A stretch of 64,000 nucleotides of DNA from Hygrophila difformis (Eukaryota > Streptophyta > Magnoliopsida > Lamiales > Acanthaceae). This document shows positions 7,065-42,298 of this stretch, in pieces. The notes beneath the pieces were generated by a model that saw only the letters and a list, made by a program, of their open reading frames with translations, was not told the DNA's origin and searched no databases. Location: assembly GCA_030278955.1 (NCBI GenBank), contig JAOANR010000011.1:31190403-31254402 (forward strand). The letters run 5' to 3'. Numbering within the stretch: position 1 is the stretch's first letter; every line of letters begins with the position of its first letter. The translations under genes and the position numbers were made by a program.

Positions 7065-8456
7065 TTAGCTGTGACTAGAAAGGGGTTGTAACCCAATTCC
7101 AATTGACATTCTTTCAATGGAATCTCTTGCTAATGCTTTTGTAAAACAATCCGCAAGGTTCAATTTTTTTCTAACATAGTCAACTGTTATGGTACCATCT
7201 GTGATAGGTCCTTGGATGTAACTATGTCTCACACCAATGTGCCTGGACTTACCATTGTAAACTTGACTATAAGCTTTTGCCAAAGCAACTGCATTGTCAC
7301 AGTGTATTGCTATTGGCGATATCGGTTTTGGCAACACAGGTATCTCAAATATGAGATTTCTCAACCATTCCACTTCCTTTCCTGTCGAAGCTAGAGCGAT
7401 AAACTCTGAAGCCATTGTGGAATTAGTAATACAGGTTTGTTTCTTGGAGGACCAGGAAATTGCACCTCTCCAATAAGAAATTCCCAACCACTTGTTGAAG
7501 AGTGATCTTCATTCGCTATCCAACTAGCATCTGAAAAACCTTCCAGTACTGAAGGATTTCCACTATATGACAAACCATAATCAATGGTTTTCTTTAAATA
7601 TTTAAACACACGCCGGATTGCATGCCAATGAGATAAACTAAGATTACCAGTAAATCTACTCAATTTACCTACAACAAATGAGATGTCAGGTCTCGTACAT
7701 GTCATTGCATACATTAAACATCCTATCACCCTTGCATATTCTAGTTGAGAGACAACCTTACCACCATTAGGCAGTAGCTTAACACTTGGATCCATAGGTG
7801 TTGATGCAAGAGAACCATCACAAACATTAAACTTCTTAAGTACTTTCTCAATGTAATGAGTCTGTGATAAGATCAATTTGTTTTGTTCTCTAATTATTTT
7901 TATGCCAAGGATGACATCAGCTTCTCCCATATCTTTTGTAGAAAATTTGGAAGCTAAGAATGATTTAGTTAATTTAATACTTTCTAAATTTGTTCCAAAG
8001 ATCAACATGTCATCCACATAAAGACAAATGATAACATCATTACCTTGGTCATTAAATTTGATGTTCAAAGATTTGTCTGAATTGTTCAACTTGAAGTCAT
8101 TCGACAACACAACTTCATCAAATTTTTTGTGCCATTGTTTGGGTGCTTTTTTCAACCCATACAAAGACTTAATTAACTCGCAAACTTTATGCTCTTGGCC
8201 TTTCAAAACAAACCTTACCGGTTGTTCCATATAGATTTCTTCTTCGAGCTCTTCATTCAAAAATGTTGTTTTAACATCCATTTGATGGATAAAGAGCTTG
8301 TAAATAGATGCAATAGCTATTAATAATCGAATAGTGGAGATTCTAGCAACCGGTGCATAAGCATCGAAATAATCAATTCCCGATTTTTGTTTAAAACTTG
8401 TGCTACTAAACGAGCTTTGAATTTATCAATTCTTCCATCTACTTTCATTTTCTTTT
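7065..8456 (-). pseudogene. Copia reverse transcriptase-RNase H, frameshifted
   Basis: The minus strand encodes the RVT_2 reverse transcriptase of Copia elements, starting with WILKKKMKVDG (about 8456) and damaged until MDVKTTFLNEELEEEIYMEQP (8281). The catalytic YVDDM lies near 8015, followed by the STSGW region. A frameshift near 7450-7490 passes to the second frame, which carries the RNase H end: SWSSKKQ, the SEFIALA segment, AIHCDN and a C-terminal part to 7065. In an intact element these would be one polyprotein making cDNA in virus-like particles. Frameshifts and stops in 8281-8456 and at the RT/RNase H junction make it non-functional. Confidence 0.85.
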
Positions 8457-23850: not shown

Positions 23851-24969
23851 ATGGCGCCTAGAAGGAAACCAAGGAAGGTGAGTCCAAACGGCACTGACGC
23901 TAACCTTTCCAACACGCCCAACAACAGTGAAAGTCCTCAGAACCTAGGAGAGCAAGTGCCTCAAGCGCCCAATAATATGGAAGCACGTTTAAAATCTGTA
24001 GAGGAACTCCTTGTAGCATTGGGAAATGCCGAGGTGCATAGGACACAAACAGTGCCTCCGCCAGTAGCCCGAGTCAACTACTTGGCATTAGTGAACCCCT
24101 ACAACCCACCCCATTATGACGGCCAAGAGGATCCAGCCAAGTTGGAAGGATGGATCCGTACCTTTGATAAGCTCTTGAATGCTATCAAGTGCCCTGATGA
24201 GGAGAAGATACACGTAGTGACCTACTACCTAGGAGGCGAAGCCGATGAGTGGTGGCAAAATCTCCAAGCAAATTCAGTGGAAGACGAAGAAGCCTACACC
24301 TGGGAAGAACTTAAGGAAGCTTTGAGGGAAAGATTCTACCCACTGAGCACCAAGACTGCGAAGTACGAGGAGTTCATCAACTTAAAGCAAGGTGCACAAA
24401 CGGTACAAGAGTACTACAGCAAGTTCAAGGAGCTAGTACGATTCGCTGCGAGGATAGTACCAACCGACTCTGACAAGGCTCAGAAATTCAAGATGGGTCT
24501 GAACCTTAGTATCCGGGAGATACTTGCAGTAGGACAATTCCCGAACCTACAGACGATATATGATCGCGCCGTATCAATTGCTCGAATCCAGCAATTGAAG
24601 CGTAAGGAACATGGTGAGTCGAGCAAGGACTCGCAAGGACTTGAGAAGAAGGATCGGAAAGACAACAATAACAACTCTAGGAAAGACAATGGATCCCGAA
24701 GGAAAGGAAATAAAGGTCTCAACGATGGGGGAGACGACAACCGTGGTGCGTTTATACCACGTTGCCCACGATGCAACCATGCACATCTGGTGCGCCAATG
24801 CCCGAAGCCTGGAACCTGCCGTAGGTGCGGCAAGCTTGGTCACAAGGCTAGTGGATGTCGAACGCCAGAGGAGGCGATCGAAAAGAGAGTAGATTTGGTG
24901 AACCTTCAGCAAGGGGAGAGTGACGAGGAACAAGACCAAAACCCGAACCCTCTTGAGAATAATGAATAG
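23851..24969 (+). CDS. Gag protein of Tekay/Del-like retrotransposon (372 aa)
   Basis: Gag forms the virus-like particle and packages the element RNA. Residues 1-60 are basic and disordered (MAPRRKPRK...). Residues about 85-260 form the retrotransposon gag domain, with the typical HYDG, YLGGEADEWW, FYPLS and EYYSKF segments. A basic linker follows. Two zinc knuckles follow: CPRCNHAHLVRQC (305-317, spacing CX2CX3HX4C, slightly unusual) and CRRCGKLGHKASGC (323-336, canonical CX2CX4HX4C). An acidic tail ends in a stop at 24,967. The ATG at 23,851 is the first good start after the PBS and keeps the whole domain. Uniquely for this lineage, nothing follows: chromoviruses normally continue into protease-RT-RH-IN-chromodomain. 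The ORF is undamaged. Confidence 0.9.
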   Translation: MAPRRKPRKVSPNGTDANLSNTPNNSESPQNLGEQVPQAPNNMEARLKSVEELLVALGNAEVHRTQTVPPPVARVNYLALVNPYNPPHYDGQEDPAKLEGWIRTFDKLLNAIKCPDEEKIHVVTYYLGGEADEWWQNLQANSVEDEEAYTWEELKEALRERFYPLSTKTAKYEEFINLKQGAQTVQEYYSKFKELVRFAARIVPTDSDKAQKFKMGLNLSIREILAVGQFPNLQTIYDRAVSIARIQQLKRKEHGESSKDSQGLEKKDRKDNNNNSRKDNGSRRKGNKGLNDGGDDNRGAFIPRCPRCNHAHLVRQCPKPGTCRRCGKLGHKASGCRTPEEAIEKRVDLVNLQQGESDEEQDQNPNPLENNE

Positions 24970-29725: not shown

Positions 29726-29730
29726 CCTTT

Positions 29731-30390
29731 TGTTGGGGCCATATGGAATAATGGGCCGCGAAAGAACTATTGGGCCATAAGACATGGGCCGGAAGAAAGA
29801 GGAAGTCCAAAAAGAGGATGGGCTCAAGATTGGTAAGGCCGAAAGCACATAGTAAGCCGAAGGAAGGAAATCGAAGCTGATAAAGATTTCGGCCGAAATG
29901 GGTAGAAATAGCCGAAACCAAAACAACCGAATCGAAGAGAGAAAGAATTCGGCTCAGAGGAGTTAGCCGGAGAGCGGTTATTCCAGCTCCGGCTATAAAT
30001 AGGGGACGACGCACTCAAAATCAGGGAGATCAATCCAACCCCCAAATTACTTTTATCAATTTTAATTCCTTGTTATCTTTACTGCTTTCTTTACAGCTTT
30101 CCTTTACAGCTTTCCTTAGAATTTAGCCTAGTTTGTAGCGGCTACCATTTCCAAATCCACCGTTGCTCCTTAGCAGCTGGTAGTTTGGTTCTCAGTTTTT
30201 GGTGAATTCCGCCGTTGTTTCTTAACAACAGGCAGATTCTCCGTTGTATCGTGTTATTGTTGATCAATTCAAGGAAGATTCATTCAATTGTGGGCGCATT
30301 ATTGTTAATTCGAACCCGTAATCGGTTTGATCCTTTTCCGATAGCCTCCCTTGAGGAGAAAAAGGTCCTTGGCTACACCCGAGCCAAACA
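29731..30390 (+). repeat. 5' LTR of the Tat element
   Basis: Starts TGTTGGGGCC and ends GAGCCAAACA. Contains the palindrome ATTTCGGCCGAAAT near 29,885-29,898 and a TATA box GGCTATAAATAGGGG at 29,991-30,005, then pyrimidine-rich CTTTCTTTACAGC repeats near 30,085-30,115. Confidence 0.95.
29991..30003 (+). promoter_or_regulatory. TATA box of the Tat LTR
   Basis: GGCTATAAATAGG, a consensus plant TATA box, about 390 bp before the LTR end. The same site is in the 3' LTR near 41,894. Confidence 0.8.
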
Positions 30391-30410
30391 GTGGCACGCC
30401 CAGTGGGACG
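30391..30410 (+). other. Primer-binding site of the Tat element
   Basis: GTGGCACGCCCAGTGGGACG directly follows the LTR CA. The TGGC... wording right after the LTR is the expected place for tRNA priming. I did not determine which tRNA. The site runs almost into the gag start at 30,415, so the leader is only about 24 bp. Confidence 0.7.
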
Positions 30411-30414
30411 CAAA

Positions 30415-33400
30415 ATGGCGTTTGAACAAGCAACTCCAGCAGCAAACACGGCGGCGAGGACTGATTTGCCGCCGATTCAGGAAGAGCGCGCACCAGAAGC
30501 CGGAGAATTCCCCCCAGGGTTCCCCGGACCATCACATTTTCATAATCAGGAGTTTTCAAATGATGATTTAACCCCGCGATTCCGAGATCAGGTTCAATTT
30601 ATGGTGGAGGCGGCGGTTACCAACTCGGTTCGCCAAATCGAGGGGAATATCCTGGCAGCGATGCCAGCCATGTTTAGAGCCGAAATTGCGAGGAGTATGT
30701 ATCCGATGGGAGCGCAGCAAGCTCCAGTGGCGCAGAATCCACCGCAAAATAATCACAATTTTCAGCAGCAGGCCTTTAGGCCGCCAGGAGGGCATGGAGC
30801 TCGGCCTTTTGTTCCTCCGCAGCAGAGGTACGATCAGCAACAGAATCAACCGCCTCAACCAGTAGTTCAACCGCCTGCTCCAGTGGTTCAACAACAATAC
30901 GCACCACTTCAGCAGAATCCACCACAACTGGTTGACAGAGAGCTGATTGCCGAGATTATTCGCACACAGTTTGGGAATCTCATCGGCCAGGAGAATAGGC
31001 CGATGTATCGGAAACTTTATCCAGATTACATCGAGGAGCAGTATCCACTGCCTAGAGGGGTGAAGGTTCCAGATTTCAACACTTTTTCTGGAGAAGTCGG
31101 CCGCTCTACCATCGAGCATATCGGCCGATTTACTGCTCAATGTACCAGAATCGCGCAAAATGATTTTCACAAGCTGATATTGTTCAGTTTGTCATTAACT
31201 GGCCCAGCATTCGAGTGGTACATTAACTTGCCAGCGGGATCGGTCAATACTTGGGCCGAAATGGAGCGGTTATTCCATGACCGATTCTATAATACCAGTC
31301 CGGAAGTCTCGGTAGTTGATCTGACGTCAACTAAGCAGAAGGCGTCTGAGTCGGTTACTGAATTCATTGAGAGATTTTATGCAGTAAAGGCTCAGGTGAA
31401 GACAATGCTGCCTGAGCATGAATATATTCAAATCTTAAAGCAGAATTTGAAGTTTGCCATCAAGGACAGATTGATGGTAACAAGACCGAGGACGGTAGCC
31501 GAATTGACGGCTGAAGCGATAAGGATGGAGACATATCTGGCGGAACAGGCGGCTTTCAAATCAAGCCGAAGTCAAAGCGGAAGGTCACAACCTATCCAGT
31601 CAGCTGCCTCATTTGCTGAATCTCTGGATAGATGTGAAATTCAGGAAGAGTACAATGCGGAAGACGTTCCTGCACTAGCCGAAGTCGCAAGGGCAGAGTT
31701 AATCATAAAGAAGCCTATGACGTGTCCAGCACTTCGGCCAGCCAGAGGCAAGGAGAAAGAAGGAGGAGATGAGTCTCAAAGGTTTTACTCTTTCGACTTG
31801 TCACAGATGGACGAAATATTTGATTATTGCCAGAAGAACGGATTGCTAGAGTTTAAAGGAAACCATCCACAGCCTACCAAGGATCAGTTGGAGGCCGGAT
31901 GGTGCAGATTCCACGGATCGGCCACTCATTCCACGGCCATTTGTGGGCATTTTAGGAAGCTGATTCAGAAGCATGTCGATGATGGGAAGCTGAAGTTCCC
32001 AGAAAGGCTTATGGCAGTCGATAAGAATCCGTTCCCAGCTGCCAACATGGTGATGGTGCAACCCAACCAGAATAAATCGGTGCATGACCGATTGGGGGAT
32101 CAAACATCATCTAGCAAGAGCTCTGTGCACGATCGGCTTGGGGATCAGCCATCGGCTCAGAAGTCAGGAGTATGGAAAAGGCTAGGATCTCCGAAGGGAA
32201 AAGAGAAGGTTACAGATGTTTTTGACCGATTGGGGAACTATGAGGTGAAAGAGTGGATCAAGCAATCGGAGAGACATCAGGAGATCGAGGTTAGAGATAA
32301 GAGTGAGAGACCAACGTTGAAAATCATAACCAACGGATGGGACTCAGAGATGAAGTTAACAGCCGATAAGCAGAATGGAAAGACTGTGATACAGATCACA
32401 GTCCCTGAAGAAGCAGTTAGCCCCGAAATGAAAAAGCTTAGAAGGCCACCAGCAAATACTCAGGTAGGCCGATGGGTCCGAAACTCTCCAGAAAGAAGGC
32501 ATTTCGATCAACGCCGACATGACCATTCAGCTTGGAGGGCAGAGGAGAGGAAAGTCCCAAAAGGAAAGGGATCATATCGTACTTTCAAACGAAGAATGCA
32601 ACGGCTTAAAGCAGCTGCTGCTTCTGAGCAAGAGGAGTATGATATGATGCATATGGAAGAGGACTTCCCTGATGACTGTTCGTTCTCGGGAGGACGAGTA
32701 CTCAATAGGGTATTTTCGGCTCGTTTGAGGTCCGAATCAAAAGAAGAGAGGAAGCCGAAAGAAGGACAGGATCGGCTAAAGAACAAGACTGAGTTTCGGC
32801 CAAAAGTAGTACAGCCGGAAGTTGAAAGTGAGCAGCCGAAATCGAAAGAGGAATGGAAGCCTAGACCAGTCCGAACCAGGGAATGGAAGCCGAAGACAAC
32901 TATCATTCCGAATAGTGATACACCCCCTGTTGGGCAGTTTAAATTCGACTTCGGGTCTAGTGCGAATATGGTGACAGTAACCACCGAAGAGAAAGAGGAG
33001 TACTGGTCGGATTCCGAACCAGCGGTGGTTTTTTGTCAAAAGGATGGAGAATACTATGGTGATGAAGAACCCATAGTGGATTTTTGTTTCGATAAACTTG
33101 AGGTATTTCGGCCGGAAGCCGAAATGGAGAAATCTTTTGAGGAAGGATATAAGGCATTCGTTCCAGAAGCTCAACCAGGTACGATTTTGCCTCCAACTGC
33201 GCAAATGTCCCAGCATGTGAGGCCTTTATACGTTAAAGGTTGGGTCAATGGGAGACCACTCAGGAGAATGTTTATCGACGGTGGGGCCACGGTTAATATC
33301 ATGCCACTATCTACGTTAACGAAGATAGGCAAGGAAGATTTACTCCCTACGAGAATGAAGGTAATGAGTTTTGTGGGGGCTCAAACCGCGGCCGAAGGAT

Positions 33401-33777
33401 GTATACTGGTGGATGTAACGGTCGGAACAATATCAATTCCGACCATGTTCTTCGTGGTGGATGCAGAAGTTCCGTATGCGGCCCTATTAGGCCGATGCTG
33501 GATTCATACGTCCCGATGTTTGCCATCAACGCTTCACCAGAAAGTATGGTTCTGGAAGAAAGATGGCACAGTAGAAGAAGTAGATGGAGATCAACCTCCA
33601 TTTCCAGTCAGCTCAGCCGGACGAATTGATGCGGTGTTATATGAAGAACCGATTCAACCATTCCTGGCAGTGGTAGGGGATTGGTACCCGCAGGTGATCG
33701 AGTGTGATTGGACAGATTTGGGGTTTGAAATCAGATACCAGGCCGATGAACGGCCAGTCGAAGAAGAAAGTAAATGA
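30415..33777 (+). CDS. Gag-protease polyprotein of the Tat element (1120 aa)
   Basis: Supplies the particle protein and maturation protease. The first ATG after the PBS is at 30,415. The N-terminus is Pro/Gln-rich (residues about 100-175). The gag domain spans roughly 200-370, with GPAFEWY near 262, then FHDRFY and IERFYAVKAQV. A CX2HX8C-like segment, WCRFHGSATHSTAIC, sits at about 495-510, in place of a classical knuckle. A long charged linker repeats the SVHDRLGDQ motif. The aspartic protease lies at about 930-1050 with catalytic FIDGGATVNIMP (Asp955) and a C-terminal LLGRCWI. The D-G-G triad is the form seen in Tat-type elements instead of D-S/T-G. The ORF ends TGA at 33,775, overlapping the next ATG (ATGA). 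No damage seen. Confidence 0.92.
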   Translation: MAFEQATPAANTAARTDLPPIQEERAPEAGEFPPGFPGPSHFHNQEFSNDDLTPRFRDQVQFMVEAAVTNSVRQIEGNILAAMPAMFRAEIARSMYPMGAQQAPVAQNPPQNNHNFQQQAFRPPGGHGARPFVPPQQRYDQQQNQPPQPVVQPPAPVVQQQYAPLQQNPPQLVDRELIAEIIRTQFGNLIGQENRPMYRKLYPDYIEEQYPLPRGVKVPDFNTFSGEVGRSTIEHIGRFTAQCTRIAQNDFHKLILFSLSLTGPAFEWYINLPAGSVNTWAEMERLFHDRFYNTSPEVSVVDLTSTKQKASESVTEFIERFYAVKAQVKTMLPEHEYIQILKQNLKFAIKDRLMVTRPRTVAELTAEAIRMETYLAEQAAFKSSRSQSGRSQPIQSAASFAESLDRCEIQEEYNAEDVPALAEVARAELIIKKPMTCPALRPARGKEKEGGDESQRFYSFDLSQMDEIFDYCQKNGLLEFKGNHPQPTKDQLEAGWCRFHGSATHSTAICGHFRKLIQKHVDDGKLKFPERLMAVDKNPFPAANMVMVQPNQNKSVHDRLGDQTSSSKSSVHDRLGDQPSAQKSGVWKRLGSPKGKEKVTDVFDRLGNYEVKEWIKQSERHQEIEVRDKSERPTLKIITNGWDSEMKLTADKQNGKTVIQITVPEEAVSPEMKKLRRPPANTQVGRWVRNSPERRHFDQRRHDHSAWRAEERKVPKGKGSYRTFKRRMQRLKAAAASEQEEYDMMHMEEDFPDDCSFSGGRVLNRVFSARLRSESKEERKPKEGQDRLKNKTEFRPKVVQPEVESEQPKSKEEWKPRPVRTREWKPKTTIIPNSDTPPVGQFKFDFGSSANMVTVTTEEKEEYWSDSEPAVVFCQKDGEYYGDEEPIVDFCFDKLEVFRPEAEMEKSFEEGYKAFVPEAQPGTILPPTAQMSQHVRPLYVKGWVNGRPLRRMFIDGGATVNIMPLSTLTKIGKEDLLPTRMKVMSFVGAQTAAEGCILVDVTVGTISIPTMFFVVDAEVPYAALLGRCWIHTSRCLPSTLHQKVWFWKKDGTVEEVDGDQPPFPVSSAGRIDAVLYEEPIQPFLAVVGDWYPQVIECDWTDLGFEIRYQADERPVEEESK

Positions 33778-36700
33778 TGGAGTCACAACCGAATCAAGCG
33801 ACCGAGTTCGAATCGGCCGAACTCGGAGTTTCAGATGACAAAGCAGGATGGAGCGATTTAATAGACGCAATTCCAAAGCGAACGCCGGATTTCAAAGCTC
33901 AAGACCCCTTGAAAATGGTCAATGTTGGTACAGACGAACACCCGAGGGAGATCCCGTTGAGTGCGAATCTTGATCAGCAGATGACAAGCCGATTCAAGGA
34001 GGTTCTAGTCGAATTCAAGGATTGTTTCGCATGGGACTATACAGAGATGCCAGGATTGGAGCGGTCGATTGTAGAGCACAGACTGCCTATTAAAGAAGGA
34101 TTCAGGCCGCATAAACAGCCGGCCAGGAGGGCAGCGCCCGAAATAGTCCCAAAAATAAAAGAAGAAATAGAGAAATTGTTAGCGGCCGGGTTTGTTAGGC
34201 CAGCTAAATATGTAGAATGGCTATCAAATATTGTTCCTGTAATAAAGAAGAATGGAAAATTGAGAGTTTGCATTGATTTCAGAAATCTTAATATAGCCAC
34301 TCCGAAAGATGAGTATATGATGCCTATTGTTGACTTGTTGATTGATTCGGCCGCAAAACAGGGGATGCTATCTTTCATGGATGGATATTCAGGATACAAC
34401 CAAATTTTTATGGCCGAAGAAGACATTCACAAGACTGCATTTCGGTGCCCTGGCGCCATAGGGATATATGAATGGGTGGTGATGCCATTCGGGCTGAAGA
34501 ATGCAGGAGCTACATATCAGAGAGCCATGAATTATGTTTTCCATGACCTCATAGGGGATTGTGTTGAAGTCTATATTGATGACGTCATGGTCCGATCCAA
34601 AGATATCGAAAGCCACTTGAACGATTTGCGGAAGGTATTCGCGAGGATGAGGCTGCATGGAGTCAAGATGAATCCAGCCAAGTGTGCTTTCGGAGTACAG
34701 GCAGGAAATTTTCTTGGATTCCTGGTACATAACAAAGGAATAGAAGTTGATGCGAACAAAACCAGGGCTATCCAAGAAGCCAAACCTCCACATGATAAGA
34801 AGAGTCTACAAAAGTTTCTTGGGAAAATCGGTTTTCTGAGACGATTCTTAGCAAATGCGGCTGGAAAGTCGAAACCACTAACCGATTTATTGAGGTTAAA
34901 GAAGGAAGAGGAGTTCAAATGGGGAATCGACCAACAAAAAGCCTTCGAACAGTTGAAGCAGGACTTGATGAATCCACCTGTGTTGGTTCCTCCAATTTTA
35001 GGACGGCCATTGAAGTTGTATATAGCAGCGGCCGAAGAATCTATTGGAGCATTACTGGCGCAGGAAGACGATGAAGGAAGGGATCGGGCGATATACTATC
35101 TTAGCCGAATCCTAAGGGACGCCGAAGTAAGGTACTCGCCGATTCATAAACTATGTTTAAGCCTTTATCATGCATGCCAGAAATTAGAATATTATATTCA
35201 ACCAAGGCAAGTGATAGTGGTAGCTTCGGTTGACATAGTTAAGATTATGATGAATGATCCGGTCAGTAACCGAAGAATGGCCAAGTGGGCCATGAAGTTA
35301 AATGCATACGATTTGAGATATCAACCTTTAAAGGCTATGAAAGGACAGATTGTAGCCGATTTTCTGGCTGATCATGTGACGCACCCGATAACCGATGACA
35401 TCGATCATCAGGATCGGCCGAAAGAAGTTGGTGAGATAGGAATTGTATACTTGCAACCATGGGTAATGACATTTGATGGTTCTAAAGCCGCTTCAGGAGT
35501 TGGAGCAGGGTTTACCTTACAAACACCGGAGGGCAAGATATACAAATATTTCGTGCAACTGCCAGAGTCATATACGAACAACCAAGCCGAATATAAAGCG
35601 TTAATTTCGGGATTACAACGGTTGATAGAAGAAGTAGTCAGAGCAATCATTGTCAAAGGAGACTCGCAAGTAGTTGTCCAGCAACTGCTAGGCGATTTTT
35701 CAGTTAAGAGTTCACAATTGATTAGATTATATGAAGAAGCGGTTACTTTGTTAGAGGAATTTGATGAGGTGTACATTGAATACATCCCGAGAGAAAAGAA
35801 CGAAGAAGCCAATGAATTGGCTCAACATGCGGCTAAATATCGGTTGATGCCGATAGCAGGAAATGTAGAAGTGCGTTTGGCCGAAACAGAGAAGGCCGAA
35901 TGGATTAAAAAGATAACACAGACATTAGAAGATCCTTCGGAGGCTAATCCGGCCGAAAAACGGAAAGCGCTGGACTACGTCATAATAGGAGGATTATTAT
36001 TCAAGCGTGCTATTGATGGAATATTGCTCAGATGCGTCGGAGAAGAAGACGCTAGAAGGGTAATGGGAGAGGTTCATGAAGGAATATGTGGTGCACATCG
36101 GGCAGGAAAGTCGATGAAGTGGAGCATTATTCGGCTGGGATATTATTGGCCGAATATGGGTCCTGATTGTGAAACATATGCAAGAGGATGCACCGAATGT
36201 CAAAAGCATGGGCCGATTCAGAAGTTACCGGCCGAAGAATTGCATATAATGATCAAACCATGGCCATTCAGAGGATGGGCCATGGACATCATAGGAAAAA
36301 TTCATCCCTCGTCGTCGAAAAAACATGAGTTCGTGCTAGTGGCAACAGATTACTTCACAAAATGGGCCGAAGCTCAGGCGTATGTCAGCATTTCACAAGA
36401 GGAGGTGATTGAGTTCATTAAGAGACAGTTGATCTATAGATTCGGGATCCCACAGACGATTTTAACAGATAGAGGAACGGTGTTTGTGGGAGAAAAAGTC
36501 AAGGCCTTTGCGGACGAATACGGGATAAAAATTGTACATTCGTCACCATATTACCCGCAAGGAAATGGACAAGCAGAGGCCACAAACAAACAGCTAATAG
36601 GAATCATAAAGAAAATGATTGAAGATCAACCAAGAAAATGGCACGAAAAGTTATCTGAAGCACTGTGGGCTTATCGAAATGCCAAAACCTCAGCTACTGG

Positions 36701-37172
36701 GTTCATACCATTTCGGCTGACTTATGGGATGGATGCAGTATTGCCAGCCGAAATAACAGTGCCGACTTTGAGAACAAGCCAGGCGGATTCAATGTCAGCC
36801 GAACAGTATGATTGTGCAATGAAAGATGAGTTATTGGAGATAAATGCCAATCGAGTGCAGGCCTTTGAGAATTTGCAGAAAAATAAAGATATTGTGGCCG
36901 ATTGGTACAATAAGCGAATTCGTCTTAAGCGATTTGAAGTTGGAGACTTAGTTTGGAAAGTTATATGGCCGCCGAAGCAGAAGGACGGCCGATTGGGTAA
37001 GTGGAGTCCCAATTGGGAGGGACCATTTATTGTTCATACAAGATTACCGAATGGAGCGTACGTTTTGGTGGACGAAAATGGTGAGCAGATGTCAAATCCA
37101 GTTAATGCAAGATACATGAAGAAATATTATCCATCAGTATGGGATCAAACATTAAGCGATGCGAAAAAGTAA
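33774..37172 (+). CDS. RT-RNase H-aRNase H-integrase polyprotein of the Tat element (1132 aa)
   Basis: Copies element RNA into cDNA and inserts it. Reverse transcriptase occupies about 110-330 with VCIDFRNLN, MPFGLKNAGATYQ and the catalytic YIDD at 267-270. A degenerate gypsy RNase H follows (about 420-550). A second, archaeal-type RNase H begins MTFDGSKA (Asp568), continues NNQAEYKAL and KGDSQVVVQQL, and ends NEEANELA, the duplicated RNase H typical of the Tat lineage. Integrase has an HHCC finger (His768, C-x2-C in GCTECQKH) and the DDE triad Asp838, Asp899, Glu935, with exactly 35 residues between the last two. There is no chromodomain. The start overlaps the gag-protease stop by ATGA, suggesting termination-reinitiation, or use of the stop as a ratio control. 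Fully open. Confidence 0.95.
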   Translation: MMESQPNQATEFESAELGVSDDKAGWSDLIDAIPKRTPDFKAQDPLKMVNVGTDEHPREIPLSANLDQQMTSRFKEVLVEFKDCFAWDYTEMPGLERSIVEHRLPIKEGFRPHKQPARRAAPEIVPKIKEEIEKLLAAGFVRPAKYVEWLSNIVPVIKKNGKLRVCIDFRNLNIATPKDEYMMPIVDLLIDSAAKQGMLSFMDGYSGYNQIFMAEEDIHKTAFRCPGAIGIYEWVVMPFGLKNAGATYQRAMNYVFHDLIGDCVEVYIDDVMVRSKDIESHLNDLRKVFARMRLHGVKMNPAKCAFGVQAGNFLGFLVHNKGIEVDANKTRAIQEAKPPHDKKSLQKFLGKIGFLRRFLANAAGKSKPLTDLLRLKKEEEFKWGIDQQKAFEQLKQDLMNPPVLVPPILGRPLKLYIAAAEESIGALLAQEDDEGRDRAIYYLSRILRDAEVRYSPIHKLCLSLYHACQKLEYYIQPRQVIVVASVDIVKIMMNDPVSNRRMAKWAMKLNAYDLRYQPLKAMKGQIVADFLADHVTHPITDDIDHQDRPKEVGEIGIVYLQPWVMTFDGSKAASGVGAGFTLQTPEGKIYKYFVQLPESYTNNQAEYKALISGLQRLIEEVVRAIIVKGDSQVVVQQLLGDFSVKSSQLIRLYEEAVTLLEEFDEVYIEYIPREKNEEANELAQHAAKYRLMPIAGNVEVRLAETEKAEWIKKITQTLEDPSEANPAEKRKALDYVIIGGLLFKRAIDGILLRCVGEEDARRVMGEVHEGICGAHRAGKSMKWSIIRLGYYWPNMGPDCETYARGCTECQKHGPIQKLPAEELHIMIKPWPFRGWAMDIIGKIHPSSSKKHEFVLVATDYFTKWAEAQAYVSISQEEVIEFIKRQLIYRFGIPQTILTDRGTVFVGEKVKAFADEYGIKIVHSSPYYPQGNGQAEATNKQLIGIIKKMIEDQPRKWHEKLSEALWAYRNAKTSATGFIPFRLTYGMDAVLPAEITVPTLRTSQADSMSAEQYDCAMKDELLEINANRVQAFENLQKNKDIVADWYNKRIRLKRFEVGDLVWKVIWPPKQKDGRLGKWSPNWEGPFIVHTRLPNGAYVLVDENGEQMSNPVNARYMKKYYPSVWDQTLSDAKK

Positions 37173-38156
37173 AGATTTTATTGCATGAACGAATAAGTAC
37201 AAAGAAGGTGCTACTTCGGCCGAAAGCGGCGTCGATAGCCCGAAATTACAATATACAAGGGAAACGTCCTGGCCTAAAGCGGCTAGAAAGAGGCAGAGGC
37301 AAATGGGATCTGAAGTGGTAGATGGCCAACATTCATTCCCAAGCCCAGATTCTTCTAGCCGGCGGGAGAAGAGATGGCTGTGCCAAGAAAGCCAACTCCC
37401 AGACCAGGAAGAAGAAAATTTTAATCTGCTCCAGCAAGGATACCCCCTTCTTAGCATTGAAGATAGGGACGAAATTCGAGGGGTATGGCCTTCGGAGCTT
37501 AGAAAATAATTCGGTCCCATAGAAAGGCGCGATTATTATTCGACCGCCCAAGACTTTGGGACCGATATTAGTAAGATTACGACGGGTCACAACAACAAGG
37601 GGAGATAGGGCAGAGCCCGAGTATGACCGTCGGAATACATGTTGAGAAAAGTGTGAGAAGATCCCAATGTATATGAAGATAATGGTGAAAAGATTAGTTG
37701 AACTCGCGTTGCATATAAAAAGGGCTTTCGGCTTATAAGTAAAGGACCAACCGAAGAGTCAACGGGCCAAGGGGGCCAAGGAGGAGGAGGAATTAAAAGC
37801 ATCGAGATGTTCATGATTGGTGTTTGCTAGATGATGGAACAAGAAGTGAAGAGGAGTTGGTATTTATAGAGAAGAATGGAGAGATGTCAGTTACAACAAA
37901 AAAAGGAAACGTAAAGAGAAAAGCATTGATTACGGAAGAAACGTTTCAAGAATCCCAATAAAGCTGCAGAAGATAATATGGTATCAGAAAATATCCTTGG
38001 GAACAGGGAAGAAACAGGCGAAATAAGTCCGCAAAAAGACAAACATTTTATAATGGGCCGATTAAGTATACAGAGCGAATCGGCCGAAATGATAGCCAAG
38101 AGTACAGTAAGGGAGGATATTATTACATCCAAAAAAGAAAATAACAACAACAAAGT
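37173..38156. other. Spacer between pol and the antisense gene
   Basis: About 980 bp with no convincing ORF on either strand. It serves as the 3' flank of both converging transcription units. GGCCGAA words continue here (for example near 37,217 and 38,083). Confidence 0.6.
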
Positions 38157-41100
38157 TCAATCCCCACTCAAATCATAAGCGATGTCTTCACTGAAGTCAC
38201 TGGTAAGAGGAGCGGCCGAAGTACTAGTAGAAGTCGGATCCAATACCGATTGAAACTCCCGATACGATCGAGCTTCAGCTTCGGCCGAAACCAGAGGATC
38301 ATCGGGTTGAGACGAGAAAAGCTTGTCGGTAGTGTCTTCGAAAGAATCACGAGGAGCATCTAAGAAGAGAAATTAAAAGAAAAAGGAAGACATAATCATC
38401 GAATATCGTCAGGATCAAAAGAACAAATTAAATATTACCAGAATTCTTCAGATTATCCCCTGAAGGAGGATTGATGAGAAGGTTGCCAGAAGACATTGAA
38501 GTATTTGGCGCCGAAGGAAGTTGAATCGCGACAGAACGAATCTGATCAAGCGCCTTCTGAGTGTCTGACCACAAGTCGCGGAAAACATTAAGGACGGTGT
38601 CACTGAAGGATAACCTCAAAGCAAGGTAGTCTGTTGTCTCCTTAAGACTAGCAAGTTTTTCCCGCGGAGCTTGAGCAGATTTGTGGAGCTCCTTTATAAG
38701 TCCTTGCAAGTGAGCCGATTCTTGGTCAACTTCGGCTAAGGCATTCTTCACACCTTGTGCCTCATGTTGAAGACGGCTGATTTCATAGTCAATGGCGGAG
38801 AGGCGATTCAAGTAATTGGATCTGAGGCCATCATTGGCCGACAATTGACTCATATAAGAATGATAGTTAGAAGCATGCTTATCAAATTCCTCCCTGTGAA
38901 GGGTAAGGGAAGTATGTTCATCTTCAAGGGTTTTGCGAAAAACCAAGAGACTGGGAAGCTCCATGTCTATCCGTAACAGACAGGTGAACATTGCATCAAC
39001 GACTTTGGACAAGCCAGAGACCAGAAGATCTTGAGGAAAAGTCCGCTGGATATAAGAGATAAGCAATAGGATGGGCCTGGTCTGAACGGAGAAGGCGTTG
39101 GGTGGTTCAGAAATCAAGAGATCAAGCTTATCCAAGCAGGCTTTGAAAGAACGAGGAAGTTCCGACGAAGAAGAAGCAAATGAAAGGGAAAAGAAATCAT
39201 CCAGAACAGCCTTATCCGGGAAAGGTGAAGGAGGATTAACATTGCCAACGGCCAATTCTCCCAGCCGAGTGTGTATAGGGGAGGGGTTAGGAATAGAGGC
39301 AATAGAAGGAGAGGGAAGAGTTACGGCTAGAGAAGTAGTCGAAATGGGAACAGCCGAACCAGTGTTGCCACCCTCAGAAGTGCGAGAAGTCAATCCCAGC
39401 CCCATATCGGCCGAAGGAACGGGAGTGGTACTAGAAGTAATAGCCGGGTCCTCATCAATAGGGTCAAGGGCCGTAGATGAGGGATTAGGTGATTCGGAAG
39501 GGCCGGAAGAGACGGTAACTCGAGGAGCCTAGAGAAAAGAAGAGGGAGACAAATATTAAAAGGAAGATGGTGAGAAAAAAAATAAATACAGAAGAAAAGA
39601 ACGGCATGAGACCTGATCAGCAGACGAGGCCGAACCCGGAAGAGGCGAACGGGCCGAACGTCGCAGCGTCTTGGGTGCCGGTTCTTTTTTCGACTTCCCT
39701 GAACCAGAAGTAGCACGTTTGCGTTTTCCGGAAGTAGCGGGAGCAGACGAAATACGCGGATGAGGGGGAAGAGAGGAAACATCATCTAAAGCAGCCCCTG
39801 CAAGGCGAAAGAAAAAGGGAAAATTTGAGAGAAGTGTACGATACACAATAAAAAGAAAGCCGAAAGACTTACTAAGTAAAGGAAGTAGAGGGTCATCCTC
39901 TTGAGAAGAGCAGGAGTAATCAGGGGCTGAACCAACAACCGAAAACATCATAATACCTGGAAAGCCGCGAGAGACAAGGAGGCTCTGCAAGTTAGTGCCA
40001 AAATTAGCATAAGAAAGAGCTTTTTCCCACCAGGTATCGAAACGCTGAGTTGAAAGACCAGGGCGGATGTCGAAGGAACGAACTTCAAAGTTGCAAATCC
40101 GGAGGGCCCAAATACGACAGAGATTTCGGCTGTTCTCAGAGCCGAATCCTTTGAAGGATTTGCTGTATCGATTCGGGTCCCCATAGAGAGGAACAACCAC
40201 ATCCTGAACAAAGCCGAATTGACGGCTAACTAAGTGAGGATTGTAAACCTCAGAAGGGATAGAGTGGTCAGGGGGGACGAACAACGAACAGTTGAAGATG
40301 TGACGAGGAATGATACAAGCATTCCAGACTTGAGCGAACGCCTTTGGAAGGGGTCTACCGAAAGGGGGAGTGTTGATAGCCGAAACCCAACTATCCGGAG
40401 TGCCAGAATACAGGTGGCAGGAAGAAGGACCAAGTGGGGATCGGCTCATGAAATAGTAGATCCATTGTTCAGAGCGCATTTCGGGAAACCGAACCCCGAG
40501 AAGATCGTTGGCGGAAGGATGGGTAGTCTCGAAGGGTTGAGGTTCAAAAAAGGACATATCCCTGAAATGCCATACCAACCAGAGGTGAAGGAACCAAAGA
40601 GGACCATGAGACCGGCTAGAGTGGCCGTCAGCCCATCCATGAACCAAGGAAGACATGCCAGAATATAGATGCGCCAAGAAGTAGTCGGCGAGAGGCAAAT
40701 GATTCTTTTTCATAAGGGCCTTGGCCAGAGGGTAGGTCTCAAGAATAACGTTCTTGGCAGGGGCGCACCAGAAGAATCGGCTGAGGAAATGCATCATAAA
40801 AGCCACAGATTCGTCCTCAGAGAATTCGGCCTTGTCCTCACGATACTTGCTAATCCATGAAGCAAAGGTGAGCCCAGAAACAAAGCCGGTGTTCTTCGTA
40901 TTAGGCTTGTCGGAGTCAGTAACCCCTAAGACAGGCTTTCCAAGAGAGGGCAAGTCCAGTAGAAGCTTAACATCCTCGATGGTTGGAGTCATCATACCCC
41001 ATGGGAAACAGAAGCAGTTGATGGATGAATTCCAGAAGCAAAGGAGGGCCTGAATATAATTGTAAGTAGTAGGAAAGGGTTGAGTACTCAGCTTAATCAG

Positions 41101-41418
41101 GTGAATAATGCCAGAGTTAGTCCAACCTAATCCGCAATGAGGAAGGGCCCTGTCGTACCAAGCAACATGTTCCTGGGTCACCAACGGCCAAGTGCTGAGA
41201 GGGCCGAAAAGCTTGACAGAGAAATAGTCCGAAAACAAGGGGATCGTCTTCGATTCCCCAAAGAGAACAGAAGCAGAAATCGTGGCCTCGGCTGAAGTCG
41301 CAAGAGGCCCAAGGGTAACGAGGTCATCATCAATAAGACGGAGCGAAGAAGTTTCAGCTAGGGAATCTTCAACATCTTTGATTTTTTGAGAGGAAGGGGA
41401 AAGAGTCGGTTGCGCCAT
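38157..41418 (-). CDS. Antisense four-exon gene: plant mobile domain (PMD) protein, about 1007 aa
   Basis: Exons (minus): 41,418-39,873; 39,797-39,613; 39,528-38,439; 38,359-38,157. Introns are 75, 84 and 79 bp, each GT..AG (GTAAGT..TTGCAG, GTCTCA..TCTCTAG, GTAATA..TTCTTAG); all junctions keep frame, giving 3024 coding bases to a TGA at 38,159-38,157. Residues about 55-440 match the PMD fold found in MAIN/MAIL proteins and plant transposons: WPLVTQEHVAWYDRAL, then a FPWGMMTPTIEDVKLLLDLP signature. Exon 2 adds a basic, nuclear-signal-like stretch (KRKRATSGSGKSKK). Exon 3 encodes a Ser/Pro-rich linker and a heptad-rich coiled coil (SRLQHEAQGVKNALAEVDQE); the tail is acidic. Intron 1 is also open in frame. 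An open reading frame extends upstream into the LTR, but MAQPTLSP at 41,418 lies just behind a TATA box. The function in the element is unknown. Confidence 0.82.
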
Positions 41419-41480
41419 CGATAAAGAGGAAAAAAGGGCGAGAAGACGAAGGGAGAGTGAGTAAGCAGGAAAGAGGAAAA

Positions 41481-41491
41481 TGGTTATAAAA
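41481..41491 (-). promoter_or_regulatory. TATA box of the antisense gene
   Basis: TTTTTATAACC on the minus strand, about 65 bp upstream of the ATG at 41,418. A CT-rich tract lies further upstream (GA run at about 41,568-41,581 on +). It is positioned between the 3' LTR and the gene, so the antisense gene seems to have its own promoter. Confidence 0.55.
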
Positions 41492-41617
41492 ACAAAGTAG
41501 GGGCAAACGAAAAGGCGTAGAAGAACGTGACCGGATATTAAGGAGGAGTTAGCGCACGAAGAGGAAGAGAGAGAGAGAGAAGTTACTTGGGCTCCTTCGC
41601 ATGGAAGCAATTCGCCC

Positions 41618-41633
41618 AAGTAAGGAGGGCATC
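41618..41633 (+). other. Polypurine tract of the Tat element
   Basis: AAGTAAGGAGGGCATC directly precedes the 3' LTR start at 41,634. It is the plus-strand primer for cDNA synthesis. Confidence 0.75.
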
Positions 41634-42293
41634 TGTTGGGGCCATATGGAATAATGGGCCGCGAAAGAACTATTGGGCCATAAGACATGGGCCGGAAGAA
41701 AGAGGAAGTCCAAAAAGAGGATGGGCTCAAGATTGGTAAGGCCGAAAGCACATAGTAAGCCGAAGGAAGGAAATCGAAGCTGATAAAGATTTCGGCCGAA
41801 ATGGGTAGAAATAGCCGAAACCAAAACAACCGAATCGAAGAGAGAAAGAATTCGGCTCAGAGGAGTTAGCCGGAGAGCGGTTATTCCAGCTCCGGCTATA
41901 AATAGGGGACGACGCACTCAAAATCAGGGAGATCAATCCAACCCCCAAATTACTTTTATCAATTTTAATTCCTTGTTATCTTTACTGCTTTCTTTACAGC
42001 TTTCCTTTACAGCTTTCCTTAGAATTTAGCCTAGTTTGTAGCGGTTACCATTTCCAAATCCACCGTTGCTCCTTAGCAGCTGGTAGTTTGGTTCTCAGTT
42101 TTTGGTGAATTCCGCCGTTGTTTCTTAACAACAGGCAGATTCTCCGTTGTATCGTGTTATTGTTGATCAATTCAAGGAAGATTCATTCAATTGTGGGCGC
42201 ATTATTGTTAATTCGAACCCGTAATCGGTTTGATCCTTTTCCGATAGCCTCCCTTGAGGAGAAAAAGGTCCTTGGCTACACCCGAGCCAAACA
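41634..42293 (+). repeat. 3' LTR of the Tat element
   Basis: Same 660 bp as the 5' LTR; I see one substitution (GCGGCTACC at the 5', GCGGTTACC at the 3'). Such near identity means a very recent insertion. Confidence 0.95.
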
Positions 42294-42298
42294 CCTTT

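Follow-up and report, generated by a model that had tools for sequence, protein, structure and literature searches.

It is already known that gypsy elements can encode plant mobile domains (PMDs) and that antisense ORFs can lie next to the 3' LTR, and extra ORFs in plant Ty3/gypsy elements were reportedly described by Steinbauerova in 2011. The element described here resembles the PMD-bearing plant Ty3/gypsy elements in carrying the PMD as an accessory ORF within the Tat lineage, in which a PMD was found in 57% of the Ogre elements (Neumann 2019); it differs in that an explicit four-exon gene was followed over 20 copies and that two versions of it occur on one backbone. In Retand, an antisense ORF lies between pol and the 3' LTR and has a TRP28 domain in 97% of the clusters (PMC11963269). 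An antisense coding region is present at the same place in our element, whose distance from pol to the 3' LTR (4461 bp) falls inside the Retand range of 2,933-6,566 bp (PMC11963269), but Transposase_28 (PF04195) was absent among its matches at E <= 1 and a spliced PMD gene was found instead. Maize Grande likewise carries an accessory gene, gene23, in antisense close to the 3' LTR, with its own promoter and a nuclear protein as told in PMC7264820; unlike for the PMD gene, no clear database similarity is reported for it and introns are not mentioned, at least in the portion of PMC7264820 available to us. PMD proteins take part in silencing (PMC5418596, PMC7156037, PMC8616336), and the Arabidopsis PMD-C proteins MAIN and MAIL1, which share the domain, are described as at least partly nuclear and linked to transposon silencing; in the classification of Ikeda 2017 (PMC5418596), however, they are products of host genes and fall into a different clade. 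As a working analogy we used VANC of the VANDAL transposons (PMC5735166), an element-encoded protein with a short family-dense motif, although no VANC-type domain was found among the Pfam matches of our protein.

The window, a stretch of 64,000 nucleotides of Hygrophila difformis DNA (contig JAOANR010000011.1), holds an intact LTR retrotransposon at 29731-42293, with paired LTRs, a TSD, gag and pol frames, and PBS and PPT regions (Table 1). An intact Tat-type element had been claimed by an earlier, sequence-only reading, which is borne out by the near-identical LTRs, the TSD CCTTT directly outside them (29726-29730 and 42294-42298) and the additional RNase H of pol. A PBS-like stretch, with no tRNA named, starts at 30392, and a purine-rich stretch precedes 41634. 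The listed GTG start of the gag-protease ORF may not be the true start, and the aspartyl protease models scored slightly under their Pfam cut-offs in this ORF. In pol, Pfam placed RVT_1 at 158-316, RT_RNaseH at 411-512, RVT_3 at 567-686, H2C2 at 758-813 and rve at 831-928, and a chromodomain was not matched at E <= 1. This domain order, in which an additional RNase H separates RH from INT, marks the Tat lineage and its angiosperm clades Ogre and Retand, as set out in PMC6317226. The same source describes the gag-PR and RT-RH-INT ORFs of Ogre as spaced by a region of 274 bp on average, with an intron in pea and Medicago, whereas in our element the start of pol overlaps the stop of gag-PR by 4 nt (ATGA). 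The element is a young, structurally intact Tat-lineage Ty3/gypsy.

Table 1. Features of the retrotransposon and its antisense PMD gene, in positions of the window.
Feature	Position	Strand	Remarks
5' LTR (TG...CA)	29731..30390	+	660 bp; 659/660 identical to 3' LTR
gag-protease ORF	30391..33777	+	from the ORF listing; Pfam Retrotrans_gag above its cut-off
pol ORF	33774..37172	+	RT, RNase H, additional RNase H (aRH), integrase
Exchangeable cassette	37271..41590		antisense PMD gene, promoter-side region and pol-PMD spacer; right border approximate
Exon 4	38157..38359	-	203 nt; C-terminus, TGA ends at 38157
Intron 3	38360..38438	-	79 nt; GT..AG in 20/20 copies; nearly invariant
Exon 3	38439..39528	-	1090 nt; serine/proline-rich linker, then coiled coil (predicted)
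Intron 2	39529..39612	-	84 nt; GT..AG in 20/20 copies; length changed in 16/20
Exon 2	39613..39797	-	185 nt; holds the basic stretch
Intron 1	39798..39872	-	75 nt; GT..AG in 20/20 copies; one nucleotide longer in L061 and L062
Exon 1	39873..41418	-	1546 nt; N-terminus with the PMD, whose best stretch is residues 103-311
5' flank of PMD gene	41419..41633	-	TATAA at 41488-41484 and pyrimidine-rich stretch; putative own promoter
3' LTR	41634..42293	+	660 bp; one mismatch to 5' LTR

Between pol and the 3' LTR, on the strand opposite to pol, four exons running from 41418 to 38157 join to 3024 nt, i.e., 1007 codons and the TGA, and all three GT..AG pairs (six splice dinucleotides) were retained in each of the 20 fetched copies; the predicted spliced structure and its antisense placement, both proposed from the window alone, are upheld. 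The proposed PMD was also recovered in a Pfam profile search (PF10536, 106.6 bits with the cut-off at 34.9, E = 2e-30). The basic stretch KRKR...KSKK...RRSAR at residues 540-565 (39726-39649) resembles a nuclear localisation signal, a label given by eye. A coiled coil is predicted at residues about 769-912 (38955-38524), as a helix at 151-294 of a 325-aa ORF with a mean pLDDT of 56.7 and 10-residue means along the helix of about 49-92; coiled-coil profile matches were weak and under the cut-off. For PMD exon 1, AlphaFold2 run without an alignment gave a pLDDT of 33.6 and the predicted fold was discarded. Intron 1 of the window is a stop-free multiple of three, with an open frame at 39556-41829, and therefore the frame forces only introns 2 and 3 here; the additional nucleotide in two copies would break read-through there. 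The TATAA of the 5' flank was seen in the window and in all three other copies with this version of the gene (W1, see below) that were fetched there. A second antisense ORF (37814) was looked at in four copies, which are too few.

Splice sites and dN/dS were counted in 20 of the 83 other exon-1 matches listed, two of which were picked in knowledge of their stop; the copies were found via exon-1 similarity, which favours an intact exon 1. Exon length was unchanged in 18 of these copies, and the full frame was intact in 15. Across them, dN/dS was 0.222 for the whole gene, 0.164 for exon 1, 0.129 for the PMD, 0.095 for the coil at residues 772-898 and 0.280 for exons 2-4, which were not used in finding the copies, compared to 1.05 and 1.40 in two shifted frames. 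Antisense-frame controls gave 0.914, 0.265 and 1.333, of which the second is not independent because its third positions are common to the gene. These comparisons show that purifying selection acts on the predicted protein, and a chance ORF was rejected on the splice pairs, the exon lengths and the difference between 0.222 and the shifted frames. The introns, with a pairwise divergence K of 0.069, 0.103 and 0.006 (introns 1-3) against a dS of 0.080, overall diverge no faster than synonymous sites. The case for a putative gene rests on the indels, splice pairs and dN/dS. Family members lacking the ORF or with stops at random, a point also raised by the sequence-only reading, were not encountered among the best-scored exon-1 matches listed, in which 80 of 84 were stop-free for W1 and 80 of 84 for the second version (W2); each version has at least 84 exon-1 copies. 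In the DNA collections, no plant loci were found for the PMD gene, one 27%-identical locus (L001) being unused, and a search of the PDB by sequence returned a single chance-level match for its protein.

The version in the window, W1, and the alternative W2 are about 44% identical. Among the 41 pol genes closest to that of the window, 21 are accompanied by W1 and 20 by W2. A listed W1 (19 loci) or W2 (18 loci) lies on the opposite strand downstream of pol in all 37 listed loci, with gaps of 2628-2751. Of the remaining four, L087 and L088 carry W1 and L073 carries W2, while L089 was typed as W2 by its flank only, the 251 nt fetched for it holding no PMD but agreeing at 97% with the W2 5' flank. 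A four-exon structure with similarly placed introns fits W2, which has a dN/dS of 0.204 in exon-1 pieces; one W2 cassette was fully read, and the cassette types seen are two, not a wide allelic series.

The putative promoter near 41484-41488 would drive an ordinary spliced mRNA of the PMD gene, whose introns would persist through retrotransposition since it is the opposite strand that is packaged as RNA; the earlier reasoning that the sense RNA keeps the introns as reverse complements is consistent with their presence in 20 of 20 copies. With its PMD, basic stretch and coiled coil, the protein would enter the nucleus, self-associate and act in trans upon members of its own element family. We infer its biochemical role, from the domain and by analogy, with far less certainty than the anatomy, selection and exchange. 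Most likely, as a tentative proposal, it would counter host silencing, against which it can be said that MAIN and MAIL1 act for silencing and belong to another PMD clade. Otherwise, the protein may serve the integration complex by aiding nuclear delivery or integration-site choice, with the two cassettes as two targeting specificities comparable to the chromodomain variants in chromoviruses. The basic stretch and predicted coiled coil, the nuclear localisation of the Grande antisense protein as told in PMC7264820, the absence of a chromodomain match in pol at E <= 1 and the existence of two discrete cassettes are in line with such a role; nevertheless, the integrase is common to W1 and W2 elements and a targeting factor that is expressed apart, via an antisense promoter, would be unusual, and we regard this role as possible but somewhat unlikely. 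That the antisense RNA and not the protein is the functional product, limiting the element through dsRNA or siRNA, was proposed in general terms in PMC7264820; any antisense transcript at the PMD gene would overlap the sense RNA, and intron 3 is nearly invariant. However, a dN/dS of 0.13-0.28 in the main gene parts and exons that are almost indel-free beside indel-bearing introns show selection on the protein, and W1 and W2 keep the protein features with little alignable nucleotide sequence. An RNA-only function is therefore very improbable and was rejected on the dN/dS and the exon-intron contrast in indels.

Alignment of the copies shows that near-identical elements carry W1 or W2 on a common backbone, with sharp borders. 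Compared to the W2 copy L078, identity was 98.5% over 36669-37270, past which ungapped 30-nt blocks drop from 30/30 to 16, 14, 7 and 5-12 of 30, and it was 96% again over 41559-42293, placing the right border at about 41590. At the pol ends, W1 and W2 copies show differences of about 0.4-3%, and in 450 nt of five W1 and five W2 pol ends there were zero fixed differences and four columns with alleles common to both types, which could in part represent repeated mutation. The backbones share polymorphisms, and therefore the gene behaves as an exchangeable cassette. Cassettes would swap via reverse-transcriptase template switching between co-packaged RNAs, for which the frequent recombination among Onsen copies reported in PMC5668417 is a precedent; the exchange could consist of one or two old events followed by backbone mixing and not of frequent swapping. 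Extremely fast evolution of one gene in place would also yield two versions, and PMD accessory genes are divergent in general: the PMD protein had no relative in the protein database at E <= 0.001 among 7989 candidates, and none at E <= 10 among 512 candidates in a second search, while pol had 4437 relatives among 7933 scored. We consider this highly improbable and rejected it, since both versions are under purifying selection (dN/dS 0.22 for W1 and 0.20 for W2) and identity drops abruptly after 37270 beside pol ends that are so similar and share alleles. Two exchangeable versions of a PMD gene on one backbone are new within the literature that we searched, and the anatomy, selection and cassette exchange, taken together, are proposed with good confidence. 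Both this exchange and the motif treated below lie beyond the sequence-only reading.

Domestication of a host-type PMD gene, which that reading had suggested, did not find support. A tree was built from 13 PMD frames found in this genome, omitting L008 and the second L022 piece as too short, and comes with a long-branch warning; in it, W1 and W2 formed one clade (100/99) together with a second Tat family and a single unassigned PMD. The gene-like PMDs (L002-L004, presumed genes) fell outside it; the grouping with genic PMDs that would be expected of a host PMD-C (MAIN/MAIL) protein was not seen for the window's PMD, under the same warning. No close host source gene was found among the 117 of 3305 candidates scored, the nearest gene-like PMDs being 23-27% identical. 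All 33 loci of the second Tat family (L010-L042) carry a PMD in antisense next to pol, with a dN/dS of 0.216; this family was rejected as the window's own on a PMD identity of 27.9-29.7%, and a 34th locus, L043, is unassigned. That a host PMD gene was recently captured, or that the gene is a nested insertion, is scarcely credible despite the introns, which are like those of host genes. Both were rejected on the separate Tat-PMD clade, on the constant position and orientation of the gene in 40 of the 41 elements closest to the window's (L089 shows the cassette flank only) and on the same arrangement in all 33 loci of the second family. Ikeda et al. 2017 distinguish the gypsy-only clades PMD-A1/A2 and, in the part drawn on here, leave the direction of ancestry open (PMC5418596).

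The motif TCGGC/GCCGA occurs 102 times in the 12.6-kb element compared to 32 times in the 50 kb outside, with 33 TCGGC and 69 GCCGA on the + strand, extended forms TTCGGC/TCGGCC and a palindromic form TTCGGCCGAA. VANC-type motifs form same-orientation arrays in noncoding DNA (PMC5735166), whereas TCGGC is scattered over coding as well as noncoding DNA in both orientations, and its role as a target is putative. In favour of a motif that is read by the protein are an excess in gag, in pol and in the PMD gene beyond what their codons predict (reached in 0 of 500 synonymous-codon shuffles each), the absence of a TCGGC excess in those ORFs that were tested from the second Tat family, from gene-like PMDs and from other elements, and the W2 cassette, which overall is also motif-rich. 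W2 exon 1 without an excess (5 vs 4.0 expected), the mild one in the W2 coil (8 vs 4.8), and codon positions 1 and 2, which vary more within motifs (0.0416 vs 0.0238 and 0.0228 vs 0.0168), speak against it. Motif CpGs vary less (0.0214 vs 0.0490, permutation p 0.03), and the second Tat family has a mild GGCCGA excess by Markov expectation (9 vs 3.5). That the antisense spliced PMD protein, the element-wide motif and the idiomorph-like cassettes form a sequence-specific trans-acting system is, in our opinion, rather doubtful. If true, a VANC-like anti-silencing or self-recognition system would have arisen independently in Ty3/gypsy elements and would explain the retention of PMDs by transposons, with the motif as a concrete candidate target of the protein.

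For years, Tat elements have been known to carry antisense accessory genes, but a function for them is lacking. Here, many copies show exons and intron borders that are kept by selection. Within a single genome, nearly identical elements bear either of two strongly differing versions, which amounts to a natural paired experiment, and comparing W1 with W2 in expression, methylation, insertion sites and small RNAs would be a test of function without building anything.

The four exons and three introns that the sequence-only reading had proposed for the antisense plant mobile domain (PMD) gene of the window (contig C3, 31190403-31254402, in the 915-Mb assembly) were confirmed in the sequence, intron 1 being the only one that can be read through in this copy. 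The best PMD stretch of the protein spans residues 103-311. The protein also has a basic stretch, identified by eye, at residues 540-565, a linker rich in serine and proline and, at about residues 769-912, a long helix of coiled-coil character that is predicted. Residues 120-161 of exon 1 weakly resembled PF24924 (DUF7745), with a score below its cut-off, and the two domains may have related folds. The host element carries a second RNase H (aRH) between RH and INT, the feature that distinguishes Ogre and Retand, the Tat clades of angiosperms (PMC6317226). The gag-pol layout does not match that of Ogre and the TRP28 domain of typical Retand elements is absent, so the element is assigned here to the Tat lineage as a whole. 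In grasses, the substitution rate is about 1.3e-8 per site and year, at which the LTR difference would date the insertion to the order of 60,000 years ago.

Features of the element and its surroundings (window coordinates)
Feature	Position	Strand	Remarks
Complete LTR retrotransposon	29731-42293		LTRs 660 bp, 1 position different; CCTTT duplication
gag-protease ORF	30391-33777		open
RT-RH-aRH-INT ORF	33774-37172		open
Possible second antisense unit	37177-37868	-
TATAAATA	37868-37861	-	possible second antisense unit
ATG, 75-codon ORF	37814	-	possible second antisense unit
AATAAA	37182-37177	-	possible second antisense unit
Intron 3 of PMD gene	38360-38438	-
Last 180 nt up to exon-1 donor	39859-40038	-
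Ty1/copia reverse transcriptase remnant	7391-8281	-	RVT_2
gag frame of another element	23851-24969	+	Retrotrans_gag; zinc knuckle below cut-off

A genome search with the exon-1 protein of the window's version of the gene (W1) gave at least 84 full-length matches with 95-100% identity, the window's included (84 of 3335 candidates scored), and 80 of the 84 listed were without a stop. Among 20 other copies spread over this list, GT and AG were kept at all three introns in every copy and exon lengths were identical to the window's in 18; the length of intron 1 differed in two copies, that of intron 2 in 16 and that of intron 3, by one T of a T-run, in 19. The kept splice pairs and the almost complete confinement of indels to introns speak for real intron borders. 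The whole 1007-codon frame was intact in 15 copies, and a stop or frameshift was found in five (L046, L051, L057, L058 and L063). The pooled pairwise dN/dS of the 21 sequences was 0.222 for the gene (PMD 0.129, coil 0.095, exons 2-4 0.280) compared with 1.05 and 1.40 in shifted-frame controls, and on this sequence comparison the exons are therefore under protein-level selection. Introns 1-3 overall did not diverge faster than synonymous sites (K 0.069, 0.103 and 0.006 vs dS 0.080). Intron 3 is almost invariant in the 21 copies, and the end of exon 1 is also highly conserved (0.0016-0.0087); both possibly contain a signal overlapping on either strand.

In the 41 listed pol genes closest to the window's (41 of 38314 candidates scored), a listed W1 PMD was found within 6 kb in 19 cases, always downstream of pol, on the opposite strand and at a distance of 2706-2728 nt. 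The same layout was shown by all 33 loci of a second Tat family of this genome (L010-L042). Identity of this family to the window's element is 28-30% in the PMD and about 54-61% in INT (one short piece reaching 69%), and its dN/dS was 0.216 (PMD), 0.300 (coil region) and 0.117 (integrase). Judged by this arrangement, the PMD gene is part of the element. A further frame in the Tat PMD clade (L043, G000:C8:59195054-59200354) has 585 codons, with no recognisable pol in the 5.3 kb read there. Contig C8 also carries two divergent PMD frame pairs, the members of which are 0.8-0.9 kb apart: G000:C8:61904700-61905431 (-) with 61906252-61906965 (+), and G000:C8:62231647-62232375 (-) with 62233239-62233952 (+).

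Twenty-two of the 41 pol genes had no listed W1 PMD; eight of these were probed at the expected place, and all eight had a different PMD (W2), with only 41-53% identity to that of the window. The dN/dS of these probes was 0.204, their lengths were unchanged and one of them contained a stop. L078, the one W2 locus covered all the way to the 3' LTR, was 98.5% identical to the window over 36669-37270, after which identity collapsed (16, 14 and 7 of 30 positions matching in the next ungapped blocks, later 5-12); between about 41559 and the LTR end it was back at about 96%. Its protein was 44.5% identical to the window's over residues 10-498 and 30% over 587-936, and a single open frame resulted when three introns (81, 74 and 85 nt) were removed at places comparable to those of W1, alternative splice pairs also being possible for introns 2 and 3. 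A search with the W2 protein gave at least 84 matches, 80 of the 84 without a stop (84 of 3439 candidates scored). In several of them, including G000:C15:49058246, C7:34289221 and C5:42261751, the open frame that contains exon 1 is 1084-1217 codons long, well beyond the 631-861 codons of others; the former are perhaps a sub-version with introns lost or readable. The possible second antisense unit was free of indels over 37175-37814 in four copies, and its YATRVQL peptide is common to the W2 cassette.

In total, 21 of the 41 pol genes have W1 (19 by listing, two by probe) and 20 have W2 (18 by listing, L073 by PMD probe and L089, which was typed from its 5' flank alone), and the two types interleave along the pol similarity ranking. 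The last 450 nt of pol in five W1 and five W2 copies contained no fixed difference between the types and four columns with alleles common to both. W1 and W2 thus behave as two cassettes carried by a common backbone. The natural mechanism of their exchange, which we infer here, would be template switching between co-packaged RNAs, as inferred at high frequency for Onsen (PMC5668417).

The element (12,563 bp) contains 102 occurrences of the motif TCGGC/GCCGA, compared with 32 in the 50 kb of the window that lie outside the element. The motif is dense, with the palindromic form TTCGGCCGAA, through the LTR, gag, pol and PMD gene. When synonymous codons were shuffled within each ORF (500 shuffles), the observed vs expected counts were 31 vs 9.9 for gag, 29 vs 11.7 for pol and 23 vs 10.5 for the PMD coding sequence; no shuffle reached any of these counts, and the motif ranked 1st, 2nd and 2nd among 512 pentamer pairs. 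The motif was not in excess in W2 exon 1, L043 or the gene-like PMDs L002 and L003, nor in three pieces of coding sequence from the second Tat family or in single ORFs from two other elements in the window. The W2 coil showed a mild excess only (8 vs 4.8), and the W2 cassette as a whole was motif-rich (GGCCGA 13 vs 2.7); conservation among copies was mixed. By analogy with the anti-silencing protein VANC21 (PMC5735166), the motif is possibly a target of an element-borne protein.

An antisense PMD-type accessory gene is of a known kind, since PMDs in gypsy elements (PMC9289625, PMC6317226, PMC5418596) and antisense ORFs between pol and the 3' LTR (PMC11963269, PMC7264820) have been reported. 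In the accessible text of the open-licence literature searched, neither PMD cassettes that can be exchanged nor a motif spread over a whole element were found described. The genomic RNA, transcribed in sense from the 5' LTR, would carry the introns as their reverse complement, unspliced. Antisense transcription, plausibly from a TATA-like site that precedes the ATG by 66 nt (in all four W1 copies seen there), would give the spliced PMD mRNA, the protein of which is probably a self-associating trans factor acting in the nucleus. Arabidopsis PMD proteins are described as functioning in transposon silencing (PMC5418596, PMC7156037) and TE-borne PMDs are proposed as a counter-measure (PMC8616336); because of this, we prefer a putative counter-silencing role for the PMD protein of the element.
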